NCBI RefSeq assembly: GCF_024807035.1 | Contig: NZ_JANUCQ010000003.1 | Coordinates: 62,001 to 126,000, forward strand | Direction: 5' to 3' | Length of the DNA: 64,000 nt | Source of the DNA: Methanococcus voltae PS | GTDB lineage: Archaea; AGJL01; Methanococci; Methanococcales; Methanococcaceae | Part shown: in pieces, positions 29,420-42,200 of the stretch | Position numbering within the stretch: the stretch's first letter is position 1 | How the letters are laid out: each line of letters opens with the position of its first letter | Program-made: the position numbers and the translations under genes | The notes under the pieces: generated by a model | The model's database searches: none | Told to the model about the DNA's origin: nothing | Seen by the model: only the letters and a program-made list of their open reading frames with translations

Positions 29420-30271
29420 ATGAACAAAAAAGATTTGGCATATGCGGTTATACTAGCAGGTTCGGTATTTTCCATATCAATACTGCTGTTTTCAAAAGGA
29501 ATTACTTCCGTTTCAGTAGCCATTGGTAATGGAGACCCTGTAGCAATAGCCACGCCAAAAATGTATCCGCTTAATGAAGTAATATTGATGTTAGCGCTTT
29601 CAGCTATTGCCACAAATTGCTTTTCAAAACTTACCTGTATTGGTGACATTAAATACGAGTTAATAAAGAGTTTAGACAGTGGAAACCGTAAAAACAATGA
29701 AAATTTGGACGAATCACAAATTAATAATCGTACTGTTGAACAACTTCAAATTGGCAGTGGAAAAACCGTAAAAACAATGGAAAACGAAAATTTAAATTAT
29801 TTTGAAGAAGAACCTTCTCATCTAGAATTTGAGGAAAATGTAGAATTTGGAAATTTAAATAACACCCCTTGGAACATTAAAGAAGAAATAGAACCACTAA
29901 AAGAAGTTGAAAAGGAAATTAAAAGTAAATTTGAAGATAAAATAGAAAAAATTGATAAAATTGATAAAATTGATAAACTTGAGAAAACCAGTACTGAGAT
30001 TAAAAAAGAAGATTTAAAAAATCAAGAATTTAAAGTTGATGAGAAAAAATTAAAGAATTTAAAAGAAGATGAATTAAAAATATATAATTTATTGTACGAT
30101 AGCGAAAATAAGGAATTATTACAAAACAAAATTGTTTTAGAAACAGGATTTTCAAAGGTAAAGGTTTCCAGAACGATTAGAAAATTAGAGTTATATGGGT
30201 TAATAGTTAGAAAACCCTACGGAAATACCAATCGAATATCGCTAAAAGGATACAATAAAAACGATATTTAA
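29420..30271 (+). CDS. Membrane-anchored winged-helix protein
   Basis: A 283-residue protein with two N-terminal membrane helices (about 7-25 and 50-66), a long charged linker (about 90-205), and a C-terminal winged-helix domain of MarR-like type. The recognition helix lies in ETGFSKVKVSRTIRKLELYG, followed by LIVRKPYGNTNRISLKGY. The linker has a short tandem repeat KIDKIDKIDKLEK. Membrane-tethered HTH proteins of this kind occur in methanogens. It probably acts on transcription from the membrane, perhaps on its neighbours. GTGGTAAT precedes the start. Confidence 0.7.
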   Translation: MNKKDLAYAVILAGSVFSISILLFSKGITSVSVAIGNGDPVAIATPKMYPLNEVILMLALSAIATNCFSKLTCIGDIKYELIKSLDSGNRKNNENLDESQINNRTVEQLQIGSGKTVKTMENENLNYFEEEPSHLEFEENVEFGNLNNTPWNIKEEIEPLKEVEKEIKSKFEDKIEKIDKIDKIDKLEKTSTEIKKEDLKNQEFKVDEKKLKNLKEDELKIYNLLYDSENKELLQNKIVLETGFSKVKVSRTIRKLELYGLIVRKPYGNTNRISLKGYNKNDI

Positions 30272-30289: not shown

Positions 30290-31213
30290 TTACTTTAATT
30301 CATAAATTATACTATTTTTTAACCTAGAACGTGTCTTTTTTATACATGCGTTACCCAATACTGTAGTAGTCTTATTTTTACTTGTATCATTTGAACTTGT
30401 AATATCTAATAAAACTTCACCGTAATTTTTAGTAGTTGTGTTACAGTTTACAGGACATTGTGAATACATATCGACATTTTCAAATGAACAGGATAACTTA
30501 CCACAAACATGTAATATAGGATTATAATCTGCTAATCCTTCCATGGTTGATTTATATTGCTCAATTATTCGTTTATTGGATATTCCACTATATTTTTTAA
30601 AAATTCTAGGACCTACAATATCTAATGTACCTACAGAATCAGAATAAGATATAATTTTAGCACCACTTTTTGCCCCTTCGACCATGTAATTTATAATACC
30701 TTCTTCAATATAATTTAATAACTTCTGGGCATTTTCAGGATTTTTTCTAAGTTCTTTGTAGAATATTTTGGGGTCCATTAATGCAGAAACTACCGTAAAA
30801 GGTCCGCAAATATTTAATATAACATACTCCCCAGAATTAACCAATTCCTGAGTTGCAGTTATTACATTATTTATTCTACCTTTTTTCATGCTCAAATCTA
30901 TATCCAAAATAGTTTCAAAATCCGCCAATTCTTCATTTGAATTTATTAAATACCTATCAACCCTTGGACCGTATTTATTATCTCCCAATTTAATAATTGC
31001 ACCAAATGCTTCAGCTTCTATTGTATTACAGAAAGGAAGTCTACAAAACATGTCTTTTTTAACTTCCTTCATAGCTTTTGATAAATTAATCATGTCTTGG
31101 AGGTTGTTGTGTGCTTCAGGGAATTTAAAATCACTAGCTATCGAATCAGGTATTGTTTCGAAATTATCACTAATACATTTAAAATCCGAATTTTCTTTAC
31201 TGTTAGAATCCAT
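30290..31213 (-). CDS. Shortened UroD/MtbA-family methyltransferase-like protein
   Basis: A 307-residue member of the UroD/MtbA superfamily, whose corrinoid-linked members transfer methyl groups between corrinoid proteins and thiols. FPEAHNNLQDM, EAEAFGAIIKLG and NICGPFTV match the methyltransferase at 36170, and the zinc-type HVCG motif is present. It lacks the N-terminal CPGGMM region and the distal Cys motif (SPACG) of that paralogue, and has extra Cys residues in its divergent C-terminus. It may be a degenerate copy or have a new role. GGTGAAATT precedes the start. It is the last gene of the methyltransferase locus. Confidence 0.7.
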   Translation of the reverse strand: MDSNSKENSDFKCISDNFETIPDSIASDFKFPEAHNNLQDMINLSKAMKEVKKDMFCRLPFCNTIEAEAFGAIIKLGDNKYGPRVDRYLINSNEELADFETILDIDLSMKKGRINNVITATQELVNSGEYVILNICGPFTVVSALMDPKIFYKELRKNPENAQKLLNYIEEGIINYMVEGAKSGAKIISYSDSVGTLDIVGPRIFKKYSGISNKRIIEQYKSTMEGLADYNPILHVCGKLSCSFENVDMYSQCPVNCNTTTKNYGEVLLDITSSNDTSKNKTTTVLGNACIKKTRSRLKNSIIYELK

Positions 31214-31445: not shown

Positions 31446-32777
31446 TTATAAACCCTTTTCTTTTGAGAAATACACTGAAACAGTTGCTATTGCCATTCCA
31501 ATAGCTAAAGTTAACCATGCTGTTTGGTAACCTGCTATTGTAAAGCCACCTGCTGCTGTTATACCATAACTTGCAATTATAGCACCACAAACTTGTTGTA
31601 ATACTGCACCACCCACGAATGGGAAGAAGTTTAAGATAGCTGTTGAAGTACCTGCAATTGATATAGGGAATAATGATTTCACCTGACCATATGATACAAC
31701 GAAGAAACCGCCGAAGAAACCAAATAAGAAGTATAACACTTGGTAAATCAACGGATTATCTACGCCAGTCAAAGCCCATATTGCAAACCATAATGCAGTG
31801 TAGAGTACGGTACCAATTATTAAAGTCTTTTTTCTTGATTTTAAAACTTTATCTGCTAAGTAACCTGCAACTGGACATCCAAAGATAAGACCTAAACCTA
31901 TAAACATTAAAAGTCCTGCATAGGTTAATTTATCCCAGCCCAATACATCTTGGAAGTATGGACCTGCCCATAAACCTTGGTAAGCCATTAAAGAGCCGTA
32001 GAAGAAGAAGAACCAAATACCTAATGCCCAGAATGATTTTTCTTTAACTACCATTTTCATAGCATCTTTAATGCCAATATTATTCTCAGCTTTAGGTGCT
32101 TCAGCCTTTTGAGATTCTACAGCGATTTTTGAAACCTCTTTACCACTTTCTAAAGCTTCAACTTCTGCTATTGTAGGGAATCCTTTGTCTGAAGGTCTAT
32201 CCTTAATGAAAATATAGGATAAAACTGCCAATAATACTGAAAATCCACCTAATCCCAAGAATACGGTTTGCCAACCTAATGAAGTGTTTAACATAGCTAA
32301 AGGAGCCGCTGCTGATAAAGCACCAATGTTACCTACGGCTAACATTACACCACTTTGTGTTGCAAACTCGTTTTTTCTGAACCAGGTTGCAAGTACTTTC
32401 ATAATTGGAATATATACTGCAGCTACACCGATACCAATTAATAATCTACCTAAGATTACCATATTGAAATCTGTTGCTATACCAGTTAATAAAGCACCAA
32501 CAGCAGCTACTAAGGTGAATACTGAAACAACTTTTTTAGGTCCGTACTTATCTGCTAAAACACCAGAAGGTATCTGCATTAAAGCATAAGCATAGAAGTA
32601 TACAGAACCCAATAAAGCTATTTGTCCAGCGCCTACGCCGAAAGTGCTCATTAAATCTCCAGCCATAACTGCGAGAGATGTTCTATGGAAGTAAACAAAG
32701 AAATAAACTATTGCAAGAACTGCAAACATTACCCATCTGTATTTCATCATTTTAGATATATTTTCTTTCGATAACAT
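31446..32777 (-). CDS. MFS transporter in the methyltransferase locus
   Basis: A 443-residue major facilitator protein with about twelve membrane helices. The N-terminal half has FVYFHRTSLAVMAGDL, an early motif like that of anion or organic acid carriers, and GVLADKYGPKK between helices 2 and 3. The charged loop in the middle (about 205-240, SGKEVSKIAVESQKAEAPKAEN) lies between the two halves. The substrate is unknown. It is on the same strand as the methyltransferase cluster and may import its substrate, which is inference. GAGGTACTATT precedes the start. Confidence 0.8.
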   Translation of the reverse strand: MLSKENISKMMKYRWVMFAVLAIVYFFVYFHRTSLAVMAGDLMSTFGVGAGQIALLGSVYFYAYALMQIPSGVLADKYGPKKVVSVFTLVAAVGALLTGIATDFNMVILGRLLIGIGVAAVYIPIMKVLATWFRKNEFATQSGVMLAVGNIGALSAAAPLAMLNTSLGWQTVFLGLGGFSVLLAVLSYIFIKDRPSDKGFPTIAEVEALESGKEVSKIAVESQKAEAPKAENNIGIKDAMKMVVKEKSFWALGIWFFFFYGSLMAYQGLWAGPYFQDVLGWDKLTYAGLLMFIGLGLIFGCPVAGYLADKVLKSRKKTLIIGTVLYTALWFAIWALTGVDNPLIYQVLYFLFGFFGGFFVVSYGQVKSLFPISIAGTSTAILNFFPFVGGAVLQQVCGAIIASYGITAAGGFTIAGYQTAWLTLAIGMAIATVSVYFSKEKGL

Positions 32778-32977: not shown

Positions 32978-33922
32978 TTAAAATTTAAATAAATCTAGGA
33001 TTTCTTTTTCTTTTAAATCTTTACCAATTATGCAAATTTCGGATGATTTTTTAGTATTTAAATTTTCAAGTTCGTAGTTATTTCCAACGTAGTTAAATTC
33101 TGCATAACGTCTAACTTCAGGATTTTTATCATCCATATAATTAATATATCCCTTTCCTCGCATAATTAATCCATAATTATTAGATTTTAAAGATTCTACA
33201 GCATTTTTAAAAGCTTCAACATTTAAAGGATTGTTAAAATTGACTAAAACACTTGAAACGCCTTGCATAGCTTTGTGAACATCTCCAATGTAAAGTTCTT
33301 TTGAAATTGTTTCTTTATTATCATCAATGATTTTTAAAAATTTATCAGAATCTATACTATCCCAATTTTCAGAAATAAGTATTGCATTATCATTTAGTTC
33401 TTTTAAGGAATTTACAATATTATCTAATTCATTTTGGGTTATATATTGAGATTTACTGATAATTAACTTGTCTGCATTCCTTATTTGGTCATTAAAAAAA
33501 TCACCGAACAATTCAACTTGGTCTAAGTAATTTTCACCATCAACCACAGTAATTACAGAATTTAACTTACAATTGTCCTGAATCTCCTTGTTATTCTCAT
33601 CAAGTACGATACCAAGTATTTGACTTAAAAGAGCCATTCCAGTAGGCTCCACAATAATTCTAGTAGGTTTCATATATTCTACGATATCTTTAAGAGATTT
33701 TAAAAAGTTTAATTTTAAAGTACAACAAATACATCCTTTTTCAAGTTCTACAACGTCTAAACCTTTATCTCTTAATATATCCCCATCGATACCAATATCC
33801 CCAAATTCATTTTCAATGATTACAATTCGTTCATTTTCTGTAGCTTTAATTAATTTTTGAATGAATGTAGTTTTTCCACAACCTAAATACCCTGATATTA
33901 CGTCTATTTTTATTTTGTTCAT
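32978..33922 (-). CDS. CobW/P47K-family GTPase
   Basis: A 314-residue protein of the CobW/COG0523 GTPase family, which often acts as a metal chaperone or insertase. The P-loop GYLGCGKTT lies at residues 11-19, and the metal-binding CICC motif (C64, C66, C67) follows in ELEKGCICCTLKLNF. The GTPase TKxD-like segment is less clear: the frame shows LIISKSQYI. The C-terminal domain has a RGKGYIN segment. Its place beside zinc-dependent methyltransferases and a corrinoid activator suggests a role in maturing one of them. GGGGTAAATT precedes the start. Confidence 0.8.
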   Translation of the reverse strand: MNKIKIDVISGYLGCGKTTFIQKLIKATENERIVIIENEFGDIGIDGDILRDKGLDVVELEKGCICCTLKLNFLKSLKDIVEYMKPTRIIVEPTGMALLSQILGIVLDENNKEIQDNCKLNSVITVVDGENYLDQVELFGDFFNDQIRNADKLIISKSQYITQNELDNIVNSLKELNDNAILISENWDSIDSDKFLKIIDDNKETISKELYIGDVHKAMQGVSSVLVNFNNPLNVEAFKNAVESLKSNNYGLIMRGKGYINYMDDKNPEVRRYAEFNYVGNNYELENLNTKKSSEICIIGKDLKEKEILDLFKF

Positions 33923-34029: not shown

Positions 34030-36090
34030 TTATTTGTTAAAATTTAAAGCTTTGATAAATAAATCTTCATAACCGTCTTTAGTAGATAATTCACAGTATT
34101 TTATCTTATTTGCTACATTTTCCATATTTTTTCTAGAATCTTTAGATAATAAACACATTAAAGCACCTATTTTGGAAGAATTACCAATATATCGAACTTT
34201 ATCTTTTAATTCTTTAGGTATTATACCACTTCCGGCTAAACTATCTTCACTAAGGTGTTTTCCAAATTGTCCTGCAACTATAACTTCATCCAAATCTTGC
34301 ATTGAAACGTTTAATTCATTCAGTAAGGCTTCAAAACCCGATACTATTGCTGCTTTAGCTAATTGAACTTGTCTAATATCATTTTGAGATATATAGATGT
34401 CTTTATCGTTTGAATGCGGATTAGCATAAATTAATATAGCTCTTTTGCCCTCTTTTTCAATGATTCTATCCCTATAGAGTTCATTCATAGTATTTGGCGA
34501 TTTTATACGTCCAGTCTTATTCACCAATCCAACTCTTACAATTTCAGAAATAATATCTAAAATACCACTGCCACAAATTCCCGAAGGTTCACAATCTCCA
34601 ATTACCTTTATATCGGCATTTAAATCTTTTAAATCTTTTTTGTTGGTAGATTCATTTTTTTCAGTTTCTTTGAATTTAAAACCTTCTATCGCACCGTTTG
34701 CTGCCCTCATACCACAACTAATATTCATACCTTCTAACGCAGGACCGGCTGCGCAAGAGCATGCGGATAATTCACCATGATTTGATAAAACTATTTCCCC
34801 ATTGGTACCAATATCTATAAACAATACCAATTTATCGGTTTTTTCTAAATTGGATACTTCTACCCCAGCAACTATGTCTGAACCAATATATCCAGAAACG
34901 CCAGGTAAGCAGTACATCTTACCAAATTTTGAAATATCGATATTTAAATCAGTTGCCTTTAAATACTTTGAATTTAAGAATATCGGCAAATAAGGAGATT
35001 TACCAATTGTTTTTGCATCAATATTTATTAAAAAGTGTAACATCGTAGTATTTGCAGATATTACAACTTCGTAAATAGATTCTTTAGATATTCCTTGTTT
35101 TTGAGCTAAATCAGTTATCATTTCATTAATACAAGAGATTATACTATTATGTAATAATTTTAAACCTTTTTCATTCTTCTTTGTAAAATCTATTCTTGAA
35201 AGTACATCTAAACCATATTGTTTTTGAGGATTGATTCTACTTTCGGAACAAAGCTCTTTTTCATTTTTTATATCTATTAAAGAAGACACTACAGTAGTTG
35301 TACCTATATCTATAGCCACCCCATAGCAATTAGAATCATGTGTTGAATTTGAATCCAAATCTGTTGAATTATTTTCGTTTAAATTTTCTTTTTCCTGAAT
35401 TTCTAGTCCTAATAAGTTATTTTCTGAAAAAATTGCATTAATAACTATTTCGGATTCTTGATTTAAATTTTTAGATAGTAATTCAGATAATTGTTGTATT
35501 GAATGTAGGATATTTAAATTATTTAAATTTAAATTTAATTTAGTAATATCTAAACAATATTCATCATTTTTAGCGTATCTTTTGTTAACACCATCATGCA
35601 ATAATTTCAAAAAGATTTCTTCAAAAGTTTTAATATTTTTATCCTTTAAATTTTCAATATCCATCATTTTTAGCGTATCTTTATTTAGGGGGCAAGATAT
35701 CTTCATAATGTTTGGATTGTACTTAAATTCTGGAATATATCCATCTGCTAAAATTTTATGGGAGCTACTCTCTTCATTATTGGATAAATTAGCTTCACTA
35801 AGTAAATCCACGGTTAAATTATCATATACATAAGTTAAACAACTTAAACGAATTCCAGAGCTTAATTCATCCTCTGAAAGGTATCTTAATTCTTCAGGTG
35901 AAGGTTTTGAAACGTTGGTTTCATTTTGATTTAAAATTTTAACTTTACATTTTCCACAAGTTCCAGCACCGCCACATGGACTTTCTACCTTTAAACTATT
36001 ATTTTGGAGAATATTAAGTAGTAATTCACCATTGTCAAATTTTAACATATTATTTTCAATGTTTGAATTAATTACTGTAATTATTGCCAT
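34030..36090 (-). CDS. RACo-type corrinoid activator with 2Fe-2S domain
   Basis: A 686-residue protein of the RACo family (reductive activator of corrinoid-dependent methyltransferases; DUF4445/ASKHA). The N-terminal ferredoxin domain has the 2Fe-2S Cys set C39, C45, C48 and C84. The ASKHA core begins at about residue 255 (GVAIDIGTTTVVSS) and has a second motif at about 425 (IDIGTNGEIVLSNHGELSACSCAAGPALEG). RACo reduces inactive Co(II) corrinoid to Co(I) at the cost of ATP. Here it would reactivate the corrinoid protein encoded upstream. GAGGCTTAAA precedes the start. Confidence 0.85.
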   Translation of the reverse strand: MAIITVINSNIENNMLKFDNGELLLNILQNNSLKVESPCGGAGTCGKCKVKILNQNETNVSKPSPEELRYLSEDELSSGIRLSCLTYVYDNLTVDLLSEANLSNNEESSSHKILADGYIPEFKYNPNIMKISCPLNKDTLKMMDIENLKDKNIKTFEEIFLKLLHDGVNKRYAKNDEYCLDITKLNLNLNNLNILHSIQQLSELLSKNLNQESEIVINAIFSENNLLGLEIQEKENLNENNSTDLDSNSTHDSNCYGVAIDIGTTTVVSSLIDIKNEKELCSESRINPQKQYGLDVLSRIDFTKKNEKGLKLLHNSIISCINEMITDLAQKQGISKESIYEVVISANTTMLHFLINIDAKTIGKSPYLPIFLNSKYLKATDLNIDISKFGKMYCLPGVSGYIGSDIVAGVEVSNLEKTDKLVLFIDIGTNGEIVLSNHGELSACSCAAGPALEGMNISCGMRAANGAIEGFKFKETEKNESTNKKDLKDLNADIKVIGDCEPSGICGSGILDIISEIVRVGLVNKTGRIKSPNTMNELYRDRIIEKEGKRAILIYANPHSNDKDIYISQNDIRQVQLAKAAIVSGFEALLNELNVSMQDLDEVIVAGQFGKHLSEDSLAGSGIIPKELKDKVRYIGNSSKIGALMCLLSKDSRKNMENVANKIKYCELSTKDGYEDLFIKALNFNK

Positions 36091-36169: not shown

Positions 36170-37240
36170 TTAGTTCTTTAAATTTGAATTAGAGGAATTT
36201 TTTGCTGTATTTACCATTGCTTGAATATTCTCTAATTTTGTCCTAACGCCAATACCGCATGCAGGAGATAAAATATCTACTCCAAACTTCATACATGCGT
36301 TGCTCATTCTACCTATAGATTCAGGATTACCGTTTTCTAAGGCAAATGTACTTACATTACCCATGATTGCTTTACCCGGCACATTCTCAACAACTTGCTT
36401 TACATCAGTTATTGAATCAAAACTGATTGCATCACTTTCTAAAGTTTTTATTTCGCCGTATATACTTTTTAATCTACCACAAATGTGTATTATTGTACCT
36501 GTTTGAGCATAATCTTGTGTTTCTTCTATTAATTTATTTAAATAAGGCATAGCATATTCTTTGAACATTTTAGGGCCTAATATTTCACCGGTACCACTCG
36601 GGTCAGAAATTGCTAAAACGTCAGCACCTGCTTTTAATTGAGCTTTACCAAATTTTATTAAGTTATCAGTAACAAAATCCATATATTCATGTACCTTTTC
36701 TGGTTTAGACCTAAGTTCTTTATAGTATGTAATTGGTTCCATTAATGATGAAGCCACACTTACAGGGCCAGTTAAATTTGCAACCACGGGTACATCTTTA
36801 TCTTTATTCTTCAAAATTTTTATAGAGTCTAATATTACTTGTTCCCGAGTTATATTTCCATTTTCATCTTTTTCATCTTTTTTAGTTGATAAAATTTCAG
36901 TTAAATTCATATATTCAGTTACTGAATTTATTGGATATTCTGTAACTCTTGGTTCAGTTATTTCAGTGCCCATTTTAACTTTAGCACCCATAGCTTCTGC
37001 TTCTACAGTCATACAAAAAGGAACGCCAACATTTTCAAATCCGCCATTTTTATATAATCTATATGTTAAATCCGCCATTTTTTGAGGGTCGTTATGAGCT
37101 TCTGGCCAATATATGTTTGTAATATCCATGATATCTTTGACTATCATATTCATCATACCGCCCGGACATATGCAGGGAGGTCTATCTACGGTTTCTTTCT
37201 CTTTTAAAACTACTTTTAATCGTTCTTTAGGGGATATCAC
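36170..37240 (-). CDS. MtbA-like methylcorrinoid:thiol methyltransferase
   Basis: A protein of about 356 residues in the UroD/MtbA family. The N-terminus SPKERLKVVLKEKETVDRPP is close to the known coenzyme M methyltransferase start, so the GTG at 37240, preceded by GGTGATTAT, is the likely start and not an ATG further upstream. PGGMMNM, EAEAMGAKVKMG, HICG (about residue 252) and SPACGIG support a zinc methyltransferase. It probably moves a methyl group from the methylated corrinoid protein to a thiol such as coenzyme M, which would return methyl groups to methanogenesis. It is co-oriented with the sdm genes. Confidence 0.8.
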   Translation of the reverse strand: MISPKERLKVVLKEKETVDRPPCICPGGMMNMIVKDIMDITNIYWPEAHNDPQKMADLTYRLYKNGGFENVGVPFCMTVEAEAMGAKVKMGTEITEPRVTEYPINSVTEYMNLTEILSTKKDEKDENGNITREQVILDSIKILKNKDKDVPVVANLTGPVSVASSLMEPITYYKELRSKPEKVHEYMDFVTDNLIKFGKAQLKAGADVLAISDPSGTGEILGPKMFKEYAMPYLNKLIEETQDYAQTGTIIHICGRLKSIYGEIKTLESDAISFDSITDVKQVVENVPGKAIMGNVSTFALENGNPESIGRMSNACMKFGVDILSPACGIGVRTKLENIQAMVNTAKNSSNSNLKN

Positions 37241-37469: not shown

Positions 37470-38555
37470 TTACTCTTCATATTTGTTAATGCTTAACAAA
37501 TATTCTAATTTTTCATCAGTTACTGGCCATCCTATTTCTCTAGCAGTATCCATCATAACGTCTATATTTTCAATAGGTGTTTCTACAGGTAAGCCACATC
37601 CGGACATAATTCCATAGCCTTTTTTAGCTTTGTAACCTTGTTGAACGGATTTTATAACAGCTTTTCTTACTTCTTCTTTAGTTCCCGCATACATTACTGC
37701 TGAAGGGTCAACATTACCTGTTACTACCATTCTGTCCCCTATTGTATTAACACAGTCTTCCATATCTGCTATATCATCAATACTAAATGCGTTAATACCC
37801 ATATCTGCTATATCAGTCCATATTGCTTTAGTTTGACCACAAATGTGGATTGAAACACCATTGAGTTTTGATTTTACAAAGTCTACATATTTTGATAAAT
37901 ATGGAGCACAGTATTCTCTGAAGTGTTTAGGGCTTATAACAGTACATGAAGCCATAGGTTCTGCAATGCTTATACCCACACCAGTTTTTATAGCTGCGTC
38001 GGTGAATCTGATACAGTTTTCTAGGGATATTTCACATAATTTGTGAACTGATTCAGGGTCTTTTATCATTAATTTAGTCATTTTCTCAACGCCGATGATA
38101 AAACAAGCATTTGTAAATGGACCTACAATGAGTGCCGTACATGGAACTTCGTCTTTTAATTCTTCGTGAACATATTCCATTGCTTTTAAGTGAATAGGTA
38201 ATCTTGCATCTTTGTAAGGGTCAATTAAAGGTATTTTATCAATTTCTGAGATATCATTTATTGCAGGTTCTAATAAATCAACTGTGTCATCGTCAGGCAT
38301 TTTCATTTTAGCGCCCATAGCTTCTGACAATAAAAATAAATCGGTGAATACTTTAGCTCCATCTGCACCAAATCTTCTGTAGGTTGCTATAACAGCGTCC
38401 GCTAAAGCTCTTGGGTCTTTATTAAAATCTGAAATTTTACAACCTGAAATTCTTGCAATACCGTTTGAAAGGTTAGGGTTGCAAGGTAACCTATCAACTG
38501 CTTCGCCGTTTGCTTTTGCTTTAGCTCTTTGAAGAGGAGTCATCTTATCTTTCAT
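37470..38555 (-). CDS. sdmC: UroD-type methyltransferase, SdmC-like
   Basis: A protein of about 361 residues of the UroD methyltransferase family, closely related over its whole length to the next gene upstream. It has SIHICGQTK and SGCGLP zinc-type motifs. The region MTPLQRAKAKANGEAVDRLPCNPN matches its neighbour. The ATG at 38555 is chosen since GAGGCAAACT sits before it. In M. voltae two methyltransferases, SdmB and SdmC, are reported beside a corrinoid protein for use of dimethylselenide. The sdmC label follows that order and is tentative. Confidence 0.75.
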   Translation of the reverse strand: MKDKMTPLQRAKAKANGEAVDRLPCNPNLSNGIARISGCKISDFNKDPRALADAVIATYRRFGADGAKVFTDLFLLSEAMGAKMKMPDDDTVDLLEPAINDISEIDKIPLIDPYKDARLPIHLKAMEYVHEELKDEVPCTALIVGPFTNACFIIGVEKMTKLMIKDPESVHKLCEISLENCIRFTDAAIKTGVGISIAEPMASCTVISPKHFREYCAPYLSKYVDFVKSKLNGVSIHICGQTKAIWTDIADMGINAFSIDDIADMEDCVNTIGDRMVVTGNVDPSAVMYAGTKEEVRKAVIKSVQQGYKAKKGYGIMSGCGLPVETPIENIDVMMDTAREIGWPVTDEKLEYLLSINKYEE

Positions 38556-38853
38556 AGTTTGCCTCATGCTACTAATAAATAATTTTGTGTACGTTTTTTA
38601 ATTGGATTTAAAAATTAAATTAAATTAAATTAAACCAAAACTAAAGAATTATTTAAATAATCGATATTTATTAAAATATGTAATATATGGATTTTAAATT
38701 GCTATTGAATTTATATTTACTGATATTAACGTTATAATTAAAGATTGAGAGACTTAACTAATAACATAATATATTGAATCGATAATTTATTTGATAATTA
38801 TTTTAATTTTTAGTTTTTAGCTTTTAGTTTTTGATTTAAAATTATTTTTTAAA

Positions 38854-39942
38854 TTACTCGTATTTTGTAATAGCCATTAATTTTTCTAATTTTTCATCAG
38901 TTACTGGCCATCCTACTTCTCTTACTGTATCCATCATAGTTTGTATGTTTTCAATAGGAACTTCCACAGGTAAACTACATCCAGACATTATAATAAAGCC
39001 TTTTTTAGCCATGTAACCTTCTTTAATGCTTTTTAAAGTTGCTTTCCTAACTTGCTCTTTAGTTCCTGCATACATTATCGCGGAAGGGTCAACGTTACCT
39101 GCAACAGCCATTTTATCGCCCACTCTGTCAGCACAAAGTTTTAAATCGGCAATATCATCAATACTTAATACATTAACACCCATATCTACTAAATCGTCCC
39201 ATATTGGGTCAGTTTTACCGCAAATGTGTAATACAATATTTCCCACACCTTTTGATTTCATATAATCAATTAAACGTTTAAGGTATGGTGCAGAATAATT
39301 TCTGAAGTGTTTAGGACTTATTACAGTACAAGAAGATAAAGGTTCTGAGATTGTAACTCCTACCCCTTGCTCTAAAGCCGCATCAGTTAATTTCATACAG
39401 CTTTTTAATGAAATTTCACATAATTTGTGAACTGATTCAGGGTCTTTTAATAACATTTTGGTCATTTTTTCGATACCTATTAAAAAGAAGGCATTTGTAA
39501 ATGGACCTACAACTGAAGCAGTTACTGAAACTTCGTCGCCAATTTCGTCCTTAACTTTTTTCATAGCCCTTAAATGTATGGGTATTCTACCATCTTTGTA
39601 CGGGTCGATTACTTTTAAATCGTCTATTTTTGAAATATCGTCAATTGCAGGTTCTTCCAAATCTGCAGTGTTATCTTCGGGTTTATTAACTTTTGCACCC
39701 ATTGCCTCAGCTATTAAGAACAAATCGGTAAAAACTCTCGTACCATCCATTCCAAACATCTTGTAAGATTTTATAACAGCGTCCGCTAAAGCATCAGAAT
39801 TGCTATTAAATTCTGAAATCTTATAGCCTGCAATTCTTGCAATACCATTTCCAATATTTGGATTACATGGTAATCTATCGATTGGTTCACCGTTTGATTT
39901 TGCCCTGGCTCTTTGAGCCGGGGTCATTGTATCGCTAATCAT
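38854..39942 (-). CDS. sdmB: UroD-type methyltransferase, SdmB-like
   Basis: A 362-residue UroD-family methyltransferase with VLHICGKTD and SGCSLP zinc-type motifs. It shares most of its blocks with the SdmC-like protein (TKMLLKDPESVHKLCEISL, SDPSAIMYAGTKE-like region), so the pair is a tandem duplication. It follows the corrinoid protein gene after about 137 bases. GTGATATAG precedes the start. Its methyl donor is not determined by sequence; dimethylselenide is suggested by the likeness to the reported M. voltae cluster. Confidence 0.75.
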   Translation of the reverse strand: MISDTMTPAQRARAKSNGEPIDRLPCNPNIGNGIARIAGYKISEFNSNSDALADAVIKSYKMFGMDGTRVFTDLFLIAEAMGAKVNKPEDNTADLEEPAIDDISKIDDLKVIDPYKDGRIPIHLRAMKKVKDEIGDEVSVTASVVGPFTNAFFLIGIEKMTKMLLKDPESVHKLCEISLKSCMKLTDAALEQGVGVTISEPLSSCTVISPKHFRNYSAPYLKRLIDYMKSKGVGNIVLHICGKTDPIWDDLVDMGVNVLSIDDIADLKLCADRVGDKMAVAGNVDPSAIMYAGTKEQVRKATLKSIKEGYMAKKGFIIMSGCSLPVEVPIENIQTMMDTVREVGWPVTDEKLEKLMAITKYE

Positions 39943-40079: not shown

Positions 40080-40751
40080 TTAATTCAATTTTGAATCTTT
40101 TAATTTTGAAACTAATTCTTTTGCAATTCTTGCAGATTTTGAAGCTTCAGGAGCATAACCATCTGCGCCAATTTTATCAGCAAAGCTTTGTGAGATAGGA
40201 CCGCCACCAACCATTACGATGGTATTGTCTTTCATATTTTGTTCTTTTAAGATATCGATAACAACTTTCATGTTATCCATTGTAGTTGTCATAAGTGTTG
40301 ATAATCCAATTACATCCGCATTTACTTCCTTAGCTTTCTCTACGAATTCAATAGGTGGTACATCTCTACCTAAATCATAAACTTCGAAACCTTGTGTTTC
40401 TAACATTATTTTAAACAAGTTTTTTCCAATGTCGTGAGTATCCCCTTCTACGACACCAACTACTGCTTTCATTTTTTCGTCATTTTCTGAATATTGTAAA
40501 TGAGGTTTTAAAATATCCAATCCTTTGTACATTGCATCGGAACATACTAATAATTCAGGTATGAAGTATTCTTCTTCTTCGTACATAACACCTGCTCTGT
40601 TCATTCCATCTGCCAATCCTTTTGAAATTCCTTCGAATGCGTTGTATCCATTTTTAATATATGTATCAGATAATTCTTCTGTTAAATCTTCATCCATATC
40701 TAAAACAGCATCTGAAAGTTGCTTTATCATATTTTCTTGTGACTCTGTCAT
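40080..40751 (-). CDS. sdmA: Corrinoid protein, SdmA-like
   Basis: A corrinoid-binding protein of about 223 residues, with an N-terminal helical cap domain and a C-terminal B12-binding domain. The cobalt-ligating signature DTHDIG (H106) is clear, followed by the GLSTLMTTT and MVGGGPIS segments that contact the corrinoid tail. The ATG at 40751 is preferred since GAGGCCAAAT precedes it, the same arrangement as in the SdmC-like gene. It would carry the methyl group between the methyltransferases and be reactivated by the RACo-type protein. The label sdmA is by analogy. Confidence 0.85.
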   Translation of the reverse strand: MTESQENMIKQLSDAVLDMDEDLTEELSDTYIKNGYNAFEGISKGLADGMNRAGVMYEEEEYFIPELLVCSDAMYKGLDILKPHLQYSENDEKMKAVVGVVEGDTHDIGKNLFKIMLETQGFEVYDLGRDVPPIEFVEKAKEVNADVIGLSTLMTTTMDNMKVVIDILKEQNMKDNTIVMVGGGPISQSFADKIGADGYAPEASKSARIAKELVSKLKDSKLN

Positions 40752-41091
40752 ATTTGGCCTCATATATTAAGATTTTTAATAGGGTAATCATATTTTTTAA
40801 TGTTTAGATTATAGCACCCCATACTATGGTAATCAATATATTTATAATTTTCATTAGAAAACATAATATCGAATAAGGATGTAAAGAAATCTATTAAGAA
40901 CTACTTTAATTAAAATAAATTTATTTTTAATATATTTTTTAAAATAGTAATATCTGAGAGTTTAAATCATTGAAAAAGGTACATAATAATTATACTAAAT
41001 ATAATAATAATTTAAAAATAAATATGTTAAAAATATTGTAATATAACAAATATTTGTAATTACAATATTGACAAGCCACAAATTAATAAAA
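40752..41091. promoter_or_regulatory. Upstream region of the corrinoid protein gene with nested inverted repeat
   Basis: This region of about 340 bases contains a nested inverted repeat at 41032-41069: outer arms AATATTGTAAT/ATTACAATATT (11 bases each) enclose ACAAAT/ATTTGT. It ends 23 bases beyond the Cys-rich gene stop and about 280 bases before the corrinoid gene. It could be a terminator or processing hairpin for the Cys-rich gene, or a dyad operator for the operon. The segment nearest the start has GATTACC/GGTAATC-like words (GGGTAATCAT, TATGGTAATCA). Confidence 0.45.
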
Positions 41092-41241
41092 TTAATTATC
41101 TTTATTATTGCATAATTTTGCCATACAGTATACCGGAGTACCGCCTTCTAAATGTGCATTTATACAGTCTTTACAGTTACCATAGTGAGGACACTGTACG
41201 TTAGGGCAATTACAATTTTCATTTTTATTACAAGATTCCAT
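41092..41241 (-). CDS. Small Cys-rich protein, DUF6485-like
   Basis: A 49-residue protein with eight Cys: CNKNENCNCPNVQC, then a CKDC pair, then C and C near the end. The pattern NCPNxxCPxxGxCxxC resembles the small Cys-rich family often called DUF6485, common beside methyltransferase and iron-sulfur genes. It is too small to be an enzyme; metal or cluster binding is likely but unproven. GGTGATATT precedes the ATG. It is the first gene at the upstream end of the methyltransferase locus and is divergent from a winged-helix regulator gene. Confidence 0.75.
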   Translation of the reverse strand: MESCNKNENCNCPNVQCPHYGNCKDCINAHLEGGTPVYCMAKLCNNKDN

Positions 41242-41480: not shown

Positions 41481-42200
41481 ATGAAAAAAGAACGGGAATG
41501 TAATATAGATTATGAATCAATAAAAGATATTAAAAAAGATATAGTAAAACTATATGGGAAATTAAATGAACTAATAGAAAATGTGGAGTTAAATTCACTT
41601 GAAGAAGATGAGGAATATGAAAAAGATAAAGATAGCGGTGATGAATTATATAAAAATATACAGAATGAAGAAAAGTTGAAAAAAAAGTACATGGCTGAGT
41701 TTAAAAAATTTTTAAAGAAAAACAAATTTTTAGATTTTGAAGGAGATAGCCCTGATGAATTTGTAGAACATTATAAAAATAGAAGTAGTTTAAGCAAAAA
41801 AATACCATTATTTAACAAAGAGTGTAAATATGAAGATAGTGACGCTTTTGAAAAACAGCACGCCCTTATAAAATCATTAGGCGTTAAAGATACAGAAAAA
41901 GAAATCAAAGAATTTGCAAATATTGCAGAAAAAGAAATCTACGAAATATTAGAACCAATTTCAAATATTCACAGGTTAAAAATCGCAAAATCACTATTAT
42001 ATGCAAATCATAGTTTTTCAGAGCTTTCAAACATTACAGGATTAAAATCTGGCAATTTACTATTTCATTTACAAAAACTCCAAAATTCGGGCATTATATT
42101 TCAAAAATTCGAAAAAGGAAATTATTATTTATCAAAAAAAGGAGAATATATTATAAAATCACTTTTTAAAATTGTAAATGTGTCCAAAATGTTAGAATAA
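41481..42200 (+). CDS. ArsR-like winged-helix regulator
   Basis: A 239-residue protein with a long acidic and Lys-rich N-terminal part (about 1-110) and a C-terminal winged-helix domain (about 150-239). The helix-turn-helix is in SNIHRLKIAKSLLYANHSFSEL and ITGLKSGNLLFHLQKLQNSG, followed by a wing with KGNYYLSKKGEYI. It is divergent from the Cys-rich gene and the methyltransferase locus, so it may control them. The N-terminal domain might sense a ligand or contact another protein. The ATG lacks a strong binding site, with AGGTAGAAT before it. Confidence 0.7.
   Translation: MKKERECNIDYESIKDIKKDIVKLYGKLNELIENVELNSLEEDEEYEKDKDSGDELYKNIQNEEKLKKKYMAEFKKFLKKNKFLDFEGDSPDEFVEHYKNRSSLSKKIPLFNKECKYEDSDAFEKQHALIKSLGVKDTEKEIKEFANIAEKEIYEILEPISNIHRLKIAKSLLYANHSFSELSNITGLKSGNLLFHLQKLQNSGIIFQKFEKGNYYLSKKGEYIIKSLFKIVNVSKMLE

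Follow-up and report, generated by a model that had tools for sequence, protein, structure and literature searches.

Two adjacent genes for UroD-type methyltransferases lie beside one corrinoid protein gene in a 64,000-nucleotide stretch of Methanococcus voltae PS (the window, to which all plain positions refer), and the locus raises the question of how two such similar enzymes divide the work, if they divide it at all. The original prediction saw a tandem duplication and proposed that one copy demethylates a methylated selenium or sulfur compound and the other acts on an intermediate such as methylselenol. We find that the locus matches the sdm system, a type 1 mlp cluster for the salvage of methyl-selenides, and that the pair is already known, because the window holds two related Mlp2 proteins, two more distant UroD proteins, a corrinoid protein and an activase. 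The system itself being known, what is added here is the age, the asymmetry and the species distribution of the twins. The span of the twin genes (37470-39942) omits the corrinoid protein and further cluster genes, including MT3 directly downstream; the whole set, in gene order, is as follows.

40763 down to 30290, minus strand: compact cluster
40080 to 40763, minus strand: corrinoid protein, SdmA-like (B12-binding_2, PF02607, 5.9e-19; B12-binding, PF02310, 4.4e-27)
38854 to 39942, minus strand: Mlp2 methyltransferase copy 1 (MT1), 362 residues (PF01208, 1.8e-85, full length)
37470 to 38567, minus strand: Mlp2 methyltransferase copy 2 (MT2), 365 residues (PF01208, 1.3e-90, full length)
36170 to 37240, minus strand: third UroD methyltransferase (MT3), MtaA-like (NF004889, 465 bits against a cut-off of 244)
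34030 to 36090, minus strand: RACo/Ram-type reductive activase of the corrinoid protein (RACo_C_ter 7.1e-77, Raco_middle 2.5e-60, Fer2 5.1e-8)
32978 to 33922, minus strand: CobW-family GTPase (PF02492, 9.6e-40)
31446 to 32777, minus strand: MFS transporter (PF07690, 1.3e-51)
30290 to 31213, minus strand: short UroD homologue, 307 residues (PF01208, 1.3e-25)

Two of these genes probably start later than listed, copy 2 at 38555 and the corrinoid protein at 40751, because a GAGG-type ribosome site precedes those ATGs and aligned upstream regions show the first ATG to be absent in relatives. MT3 starts with GTG behind a GGTGAT ribosome site; two genomes have GTG at this place, where the third has ATG. 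The CobW-family gene is also found in the matching clostridial cluster (L049) and in the maripaludis-type genome G005. Judged by synteny, the MFS transporter is the orthologue of the SauU-like MMJJ_01610 of M. maripaludis, whose expression responds to selenium (PMC11097638). The short UroD homologue, probably Mlp1, lacks part of the barrel and retains H-x-C and the later C; its dN/dS is 0.05-0.19, and relatives of about 290 residues (291-293) occur in maripaludis-type and clostridial loci. This conservation in clostridial clusters and in maripaludis-type Methanococcus suggests a functional short family, not a gene fragment or a simply decayed copy.

The twins, both directly downstream of the corrinoid protein gene, are two intact UroD-type reading frames on the minus strand, as had been predicted. 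An alignment of the pair, proposed at the outset as a check, established homology over the full length, with 236 of 361 aligned residues identical (65.4%) and 72% identity in the DNA, a likeness far beyond chance that marks homology and not near-identity. The long identical blocks that had been described are modest. The first 25 residues, said to be identical, are not: the N-termini (MISDTMTPAQRARAKSNGEPIDRLPCNPN and MRQTMKDKMTPLQRAKAKANGEAVDRLPCNPN) share no identical block longer than 8 residues, and the longest anywhere between the twins has 14 (KDPESVHKLCEISL). The predicted zinc-type HICG motif is present in both, together with the third ligand (MSGC). The ligands, H239/C241/C322 in copy 1 and H241/C243/C324 in copy 2, are invariant among 64 homologues and form the H-x-C plus C-terminal C set of zinc-dependent UroD-fold corrinoid methyltransferases. 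AlphaFold models have a pLDDT of 96.7 (copy 1) and 95.7 (copy 2), and the best PDB match of the copy 2 model is MtaA of Methanosarcina mazei (4ay7/4ay8, TM by query 0.81-0.82). Both twins are under strong purifying selection and neither is decaying: between voltae-type genomes copy 1 has a dN/dS of 0.034-0.054 and copy 2 one of 0.020-0.030, and with both frames open and values of 0.02-0.05 a pseudogene was ruled out. Identity as HemE, uroporphyrinogen decarboxylase, was likewise rejected (105-109 bits against an equivalog cut-off of 303).

The prediction that a single corrinoid protein serves both enzymes is also supported. The genome (G000, 98.6% complete) holds just one PF02607 protein, that of the cluster, and a PF02607 search for a second corrinoid protein to serve the second enzyme found none there. 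The genome has four UroD proteins, all of them within this cluster.

Among seven Methanococcus genomes, both twins occur in three (G000, G002, G006), one Mlp2 occurs in three (G001, G003, G005) and none in G004, a congener that has the same selenocysteine machinery and lacks the cluster. Across the three voltae-type genomes each copy is 92-99% identical, against 65% between the copies, and the single Mlp2 of the maripaludis-type genomes matches copy 1 at 73-75% identity and copy 2 at 64-65%. In G005 seven genes are ordered transporter, short UroD, CobW, activase, MT3, Mlp2 and corrinoid protein. This order fits that of MMJJ_01610 to MMJJ_01670, whose two ends are likewise taken by the SauU-like transporter and the corrinoid protein. 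Read by position, it suggests that MMJJ_01660 is orthologous to copy 1 and MMJJ_01650 to MT3, so that MMJJ_01650, which the literature counts with sdmABC, would be the counterpart of neither twin. M. maripaludis also has a second corrinoid/methyltransferase pair at MMJJ_16960 (PMC11097638), and a similar second pair is found in G005 (L040). The corrinoid protein of that pair (L040:8346-9013) is split into ORFs of 117 and 102 residues in different frames, which may reflect a frameshift, a recoding event or a sequencing error. In other genera of the family (loci L037, L038 and L039; genomes G008, G010 and G011) a corrinoid protein and an activase stand with three divergent UroD genes; in these three loci one of the three UroD genes is short, with part of the barrel missing, and the make-up differs from that of the Methanococcus cluster.

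How old is the pair? In a tree of 85 Mlp2-type proteins all nine Methanococcus proteins are nested among clostridial Mlp2. Copy 1 joins the maripaludis-type copy in a clade (support 100/100) on a long stem of 0.32; the stem of copy 2 is short, 0.11, and the nearest proteins to copy 2 are clostridial Mlp2. A recent tandem duplication in the voltae-type lineage is ruled out (AU p = 4e-6), as is a grouping of copy 2 with the maripaludis-type copy (p = 0.001). The duplication originally proposed thus stands as an adjacent homologous pair and falls as a recent local event: the twins are old, unequally evolved paralogues, which is new here. Wide gene conversion between them was considered and rejected, since shared-site counts within and across genomes are alike (16 vs 11) and only short tracts stand out. 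These identical DNA tracts, of 32-37 nt within genomes against 17-19 nt across distant species, hint at short gene-conversion patches.

Two origins would account for the pair: either a duplication in the Methanococcus ancestor followed by loss of copy 2 in the maripaludis line, or a separate arrival of copy 2, with a handful of sites favouring each view. The second, in which copy 2 is a xenologue brought in from a clostridial donor and not born by duplication inside Methanococcus, is possible though we doubt it. Five bacterial Mlp2 proteins match copy 2 at 69-74% identity and copy 1 at 58-65%, copy 2 has five sites in common with those bacteria at which copy 1 keeps the wider bacterial state, and a tree that joins copy 2 with these five nearest bacteria in a single clade is not rejected (AU p = 0.36). 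However, the best trees unite all nine Methanococcus proteins in one clade (100/99, and 96/99.9 in a reduced set of 69 rows), and the MT3 tree, with one Methanococcus clade nested among the same bacteria, looks like a single acquisition. MT3 is 61-64% identical to the clostridial enzyme in the same cluster position, and its tree, together with the gene order in Hathewaya, would fit transfer of the whole cluster. We also entertain, tentatively, a fuller scenario in which the cluster came from a clostridial donor, Mlp2 gave rise to one copy of ancestral type (37470-38567) and another (38854-39942) that evolved faster and differs in its selenium or sulfur substrate or in its acceptor, and M. maripaludis kept only the derived copy. 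In that case the twins that demethylate methyl-selenides in the two species would not be orthologues, and if 37470-38567 is sdmC, the ancestral-type copy would be the one needed for dimethylselenide in M. voltae.

Turning to function, the simplest alternative is that the twins share one job and the second copy only raises capacity, a reading that deserves attention but falls short of being probable. It draws on the conserved catalytic loops, on the within-genome tracts that hint at small gene-conversion patches, and on the maripaludis-type genomes, where one Mlp2 suffices. The loops were set by hand from predicted secondary structure, not from coordinates. Fixed twin differences are rarer in these catalytic-end loops (12/77) than elsewhere (79/284; p = 0.027, a modest value), so that enrichment of differences at the active site is ruled out and the reverse, a depletion, is found. 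Slower change of catalytic loops is, of course, expected of any enzyme pair. At forty-six positions the copy-1 lineage and copy 2 have different fixed residues, including S199/A202, L202/M205, S203/A206 and S323/G325 in the loops, where the exchanges are mostly mild (S/A, L/M, S/G). This pattern speaks for the same chemistry in both twins with possible tuning, and it can also accommodate different substrates, as single residues can change specificity. Against mere redundancy, each copy is separately conserved between genomes (92-99%, against 65% between copies), and change after the split was unequal (the stems of 0.32, for copy 1 with the maripaludis copy, and 0.11 for copy 2). Distinct constraints on the two copies are therefore suggested.

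A second division, stated in a 2024 paper (PMC11097638), makes SdmB the substrate-specific selenide demethylase and SdmC the methyl-corrinoid:coenzyme M methyltransferase, and both twins are indeed relatives of MtaA, a coenzyme M methyltransferase. We regard it as unlikely. The twins are 65% identical with matching catalytic loops, MMJJ_01650, counted with sdmABC, is by position the MT3 orthologue and not a twin, and the twins fall under all curated MtaA, MtbA and coenzyme M methyltransferase cut-offs (198-203 bits against 235-244 in the two best). MT3, probably Mlp3, passes the subfamily models NF004889 and TIGR01463, fails the MtaA/MtbA equivalogs, and has MtaA (4ay7, 4.7e-47) as its closest solved structure. 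Because it scores 465 against the cut-off of 244 and the twins lie below theirs, MT3 is likelier than either twin to be the methyl-corrinoid:thiol (coenzyme M) transferase. Relatives of MT3 occur in bacteria not known to use coenzyme M and, on this distribution, are not coenzyme-M-specific there; the acceptor therefore need not be coenzyme M everywhere. Other roles have been proposed for Mlp1 and Mlp3 (PMC10418091).

The sequential division of the original prediction, with one twin demethylating dimethylselenide and the other methylselenol, both onto one corrinoid protein, is the least probable, since two conserved copies beside one corrinoid protein and 46 positions fixed differently, a few in catalytic loops, speak for it, but the loop differences are conservative and fewer than elsewhere, loss of one copy, sdmC, is reported to abolish dimethylselenide use in M. 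voltae (PMC10418091), and M. maripaludis is reported to use dimethylselenide (PMC11097638) and maripaludis-type genomes have one Mlp2. It also differs from the published allocation of SdmB and SdmC (PMC11097638). Because M. maripaludis is reported to use dimethylselenide, one Mlp2 would be enough there unless the second pair helps, which could supply the missing step, and a dimethylselenide/methylselenol split between two Mlp2 proteins is, on this genomic reading, not required.

Taken as a whole, the locus is in our judgement quite probably an sdm salvage cluster with demethylation by Mlp2, an acceptor step by MT3 and overlapping twins. Selenium shortage would induce the cluster and the activase would reduce the corrinoid protein to Co(I). 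Zinc-bound Mlp2 would then bind dimethylselenide, and probably methylselenol, and pass the methyl groups to the corrinoid, and the selenide released in this step would feed selenophosphate synthesis. The methylated corrinoid would then be relieved of its methyl group by a second UroD enzyme, most likely MT3 (36170-37240), with a thiol, probably coenzyme M, as the acceptor. The twins would probably share one type of reaction, with one corrinoid protein as their common partner, and differ by a shift in affinity or substrate range instead of taking two obligatory steps in succession. Gene content, homology, zinc-site conservation, purifying selection, the age of the pair, the single corrinoid protein and the selenocysteine machinery are all shown by this analysis, and the substrate of each twin, the acceptor and the order of steps are inferred. 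Evidence gathered by others on relatives comprises induction, the genetic need for dimethylselenide use, and the transfer of methyl from methylcobalamin to selenide by a clostridial Mlp2 (PMC11097638, PMC10418091). A tRNA-Sec (59.3 bits) and a SelD (216.5 bits) with one in-frame TGA are present; the organism therefore makes selenoproteins and can use the freed selenide. The methyl-selenium role first proposed is supported, the locus matching sdmABC, whose part in dimethylselenide use by M. voltae is backed by genetic evidence (PMC10418091, PMC11097638).

A promoter-proximal element, of the form GTTTTCTTCATGAAAACTATAAA approximately and conserved in both the voltae- and the maripaludis-type genomes, precedes the corrinoid gene.

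40841 to 40862, minus strand: element GTTTTCTAATGAAAATTATAAA, in which a TTTTC/GAAAA inverted repeat overlaps a TATA box, before the corrinoid gene
G005:C1:159396-159417: the same element
G001:C1:815208-815229: the same element
G002:C3:103159-103180: the same element
G006:C2:57592-57613: the same element

A genome-wide search allowing up to two mismatches found the element at this site in five of the seven genomes, with almost no other match. Being nearly confined to this site, it may act as an operator private to the cluster. A divergent gene at 41481-42200 (plus strand), which adjoins the cluster in G002 too, encodes an ArsR-type helix-turn-helix domain and is a candidate regulator. Between it and the corrinoid gene lies a 49-residue cysteine-rich ORF (41093-41241, minus strand), 88% conserved in G002 and not found in the G006 locus or elsewhere. 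At the other end, a convergent gene (29420-30271, plus strand) flanks the cluster in all three voltae-type genomes; its C-terminal part is like a winged helix, its N-terminal part looks membrane-bound, and it has no NCBIfam match.

The cluster offers a tractable route from volatile methylated selenium back to usable selenide in genetically workable archaea, and its closest likeness is to sdmABC of M. voltae itself. There a corrinoid protein stands with two closely related Mlp2 proteins in a selenocysteine-using Methanococcus, and we found no difference in the features testable by sequence. From gene order, sdmA, sdmB and sdmC are probably the corrinoid protein, copy 1 and copy 2. Loss of the other M. 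voltae copy, not sdmC, was reportedly without effect in the 2004 work of Niess and Klein. The methyl-selenide methyl transfer system SdmABC was discovered in M. voltae (Niess and Klein 2004; PMC11097638), deletion of sdmC led to loss of dimethylselenide use (PMC10418091), and the 2004 study is reported without mention of the two further UroD genes of the cluster (PMC10418091, PMC11097638). Induction by selenium depletion has been described for M. voltae and M. maripaludis, and the need for dimethylselenide use for M. voltae (PMC11097638, PMC10418091).

The type 1 mlp gene clusters have been taken to include sdmABC, in which “two closely related Mlps2” accompany Mlp1 and Mlp3 (PMC10418091). Such clusters, in Clostridium ljungdahlii and many anaerobes, resemble the locus in their corrinoid protein, Mlp2 and activase, probably also in an Mlp3-like enzyme, and often have a further Mlp; their hosts usually, though not always, use selenocysteine. 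The Methanococcus locus likewise has a corrinoid protein with B12-binding_2 and B12-binding domains adjoining the methyltransferases and a Ram/RACo activase, and the 85-protein tree places both twins in one clade with the C. ljungdahlii cluster protein (L081_8004). With methylcobalamin as the methyl donor, Mlp2 of C. ljungdahlii methylates selenide about 4-fold faster than sulfide (PMC10418091). The Hathewaya cluster (L049) has an identical gene order, CP-Mlp2-MT3-RACo-CobW-short UroD. The difference is that the Methanococcus locus has two Mlp2 genes in a row; among 64 loci, two Mlp2 in one locus were seen only in Anaerosalibacter (L052) and the voltae-type genomes. MtaA, the methylcobamide:coenzyme M methyltransferase (4ay7/4ay8), shares the UroD fold and the zinc ligands H-x-C and C and is the closest solved structure, but the twins are about 24% identical to it and score under the curated MtaA/MtbA cut-offs. 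The M. maripaludis MMJJ_01610-01670 region holds the same genes, and its very similar locus MMJJ_01650-70 rises by 5.6-7.8 log2 under selenium depletion (PMC11097638); it differs in having a single Mlp2, orthologous to copy 1. With two old Mlp2 paralogues kept in voltae-type genomes and one in M. maripaludis, the roles of the twins become a testable question.
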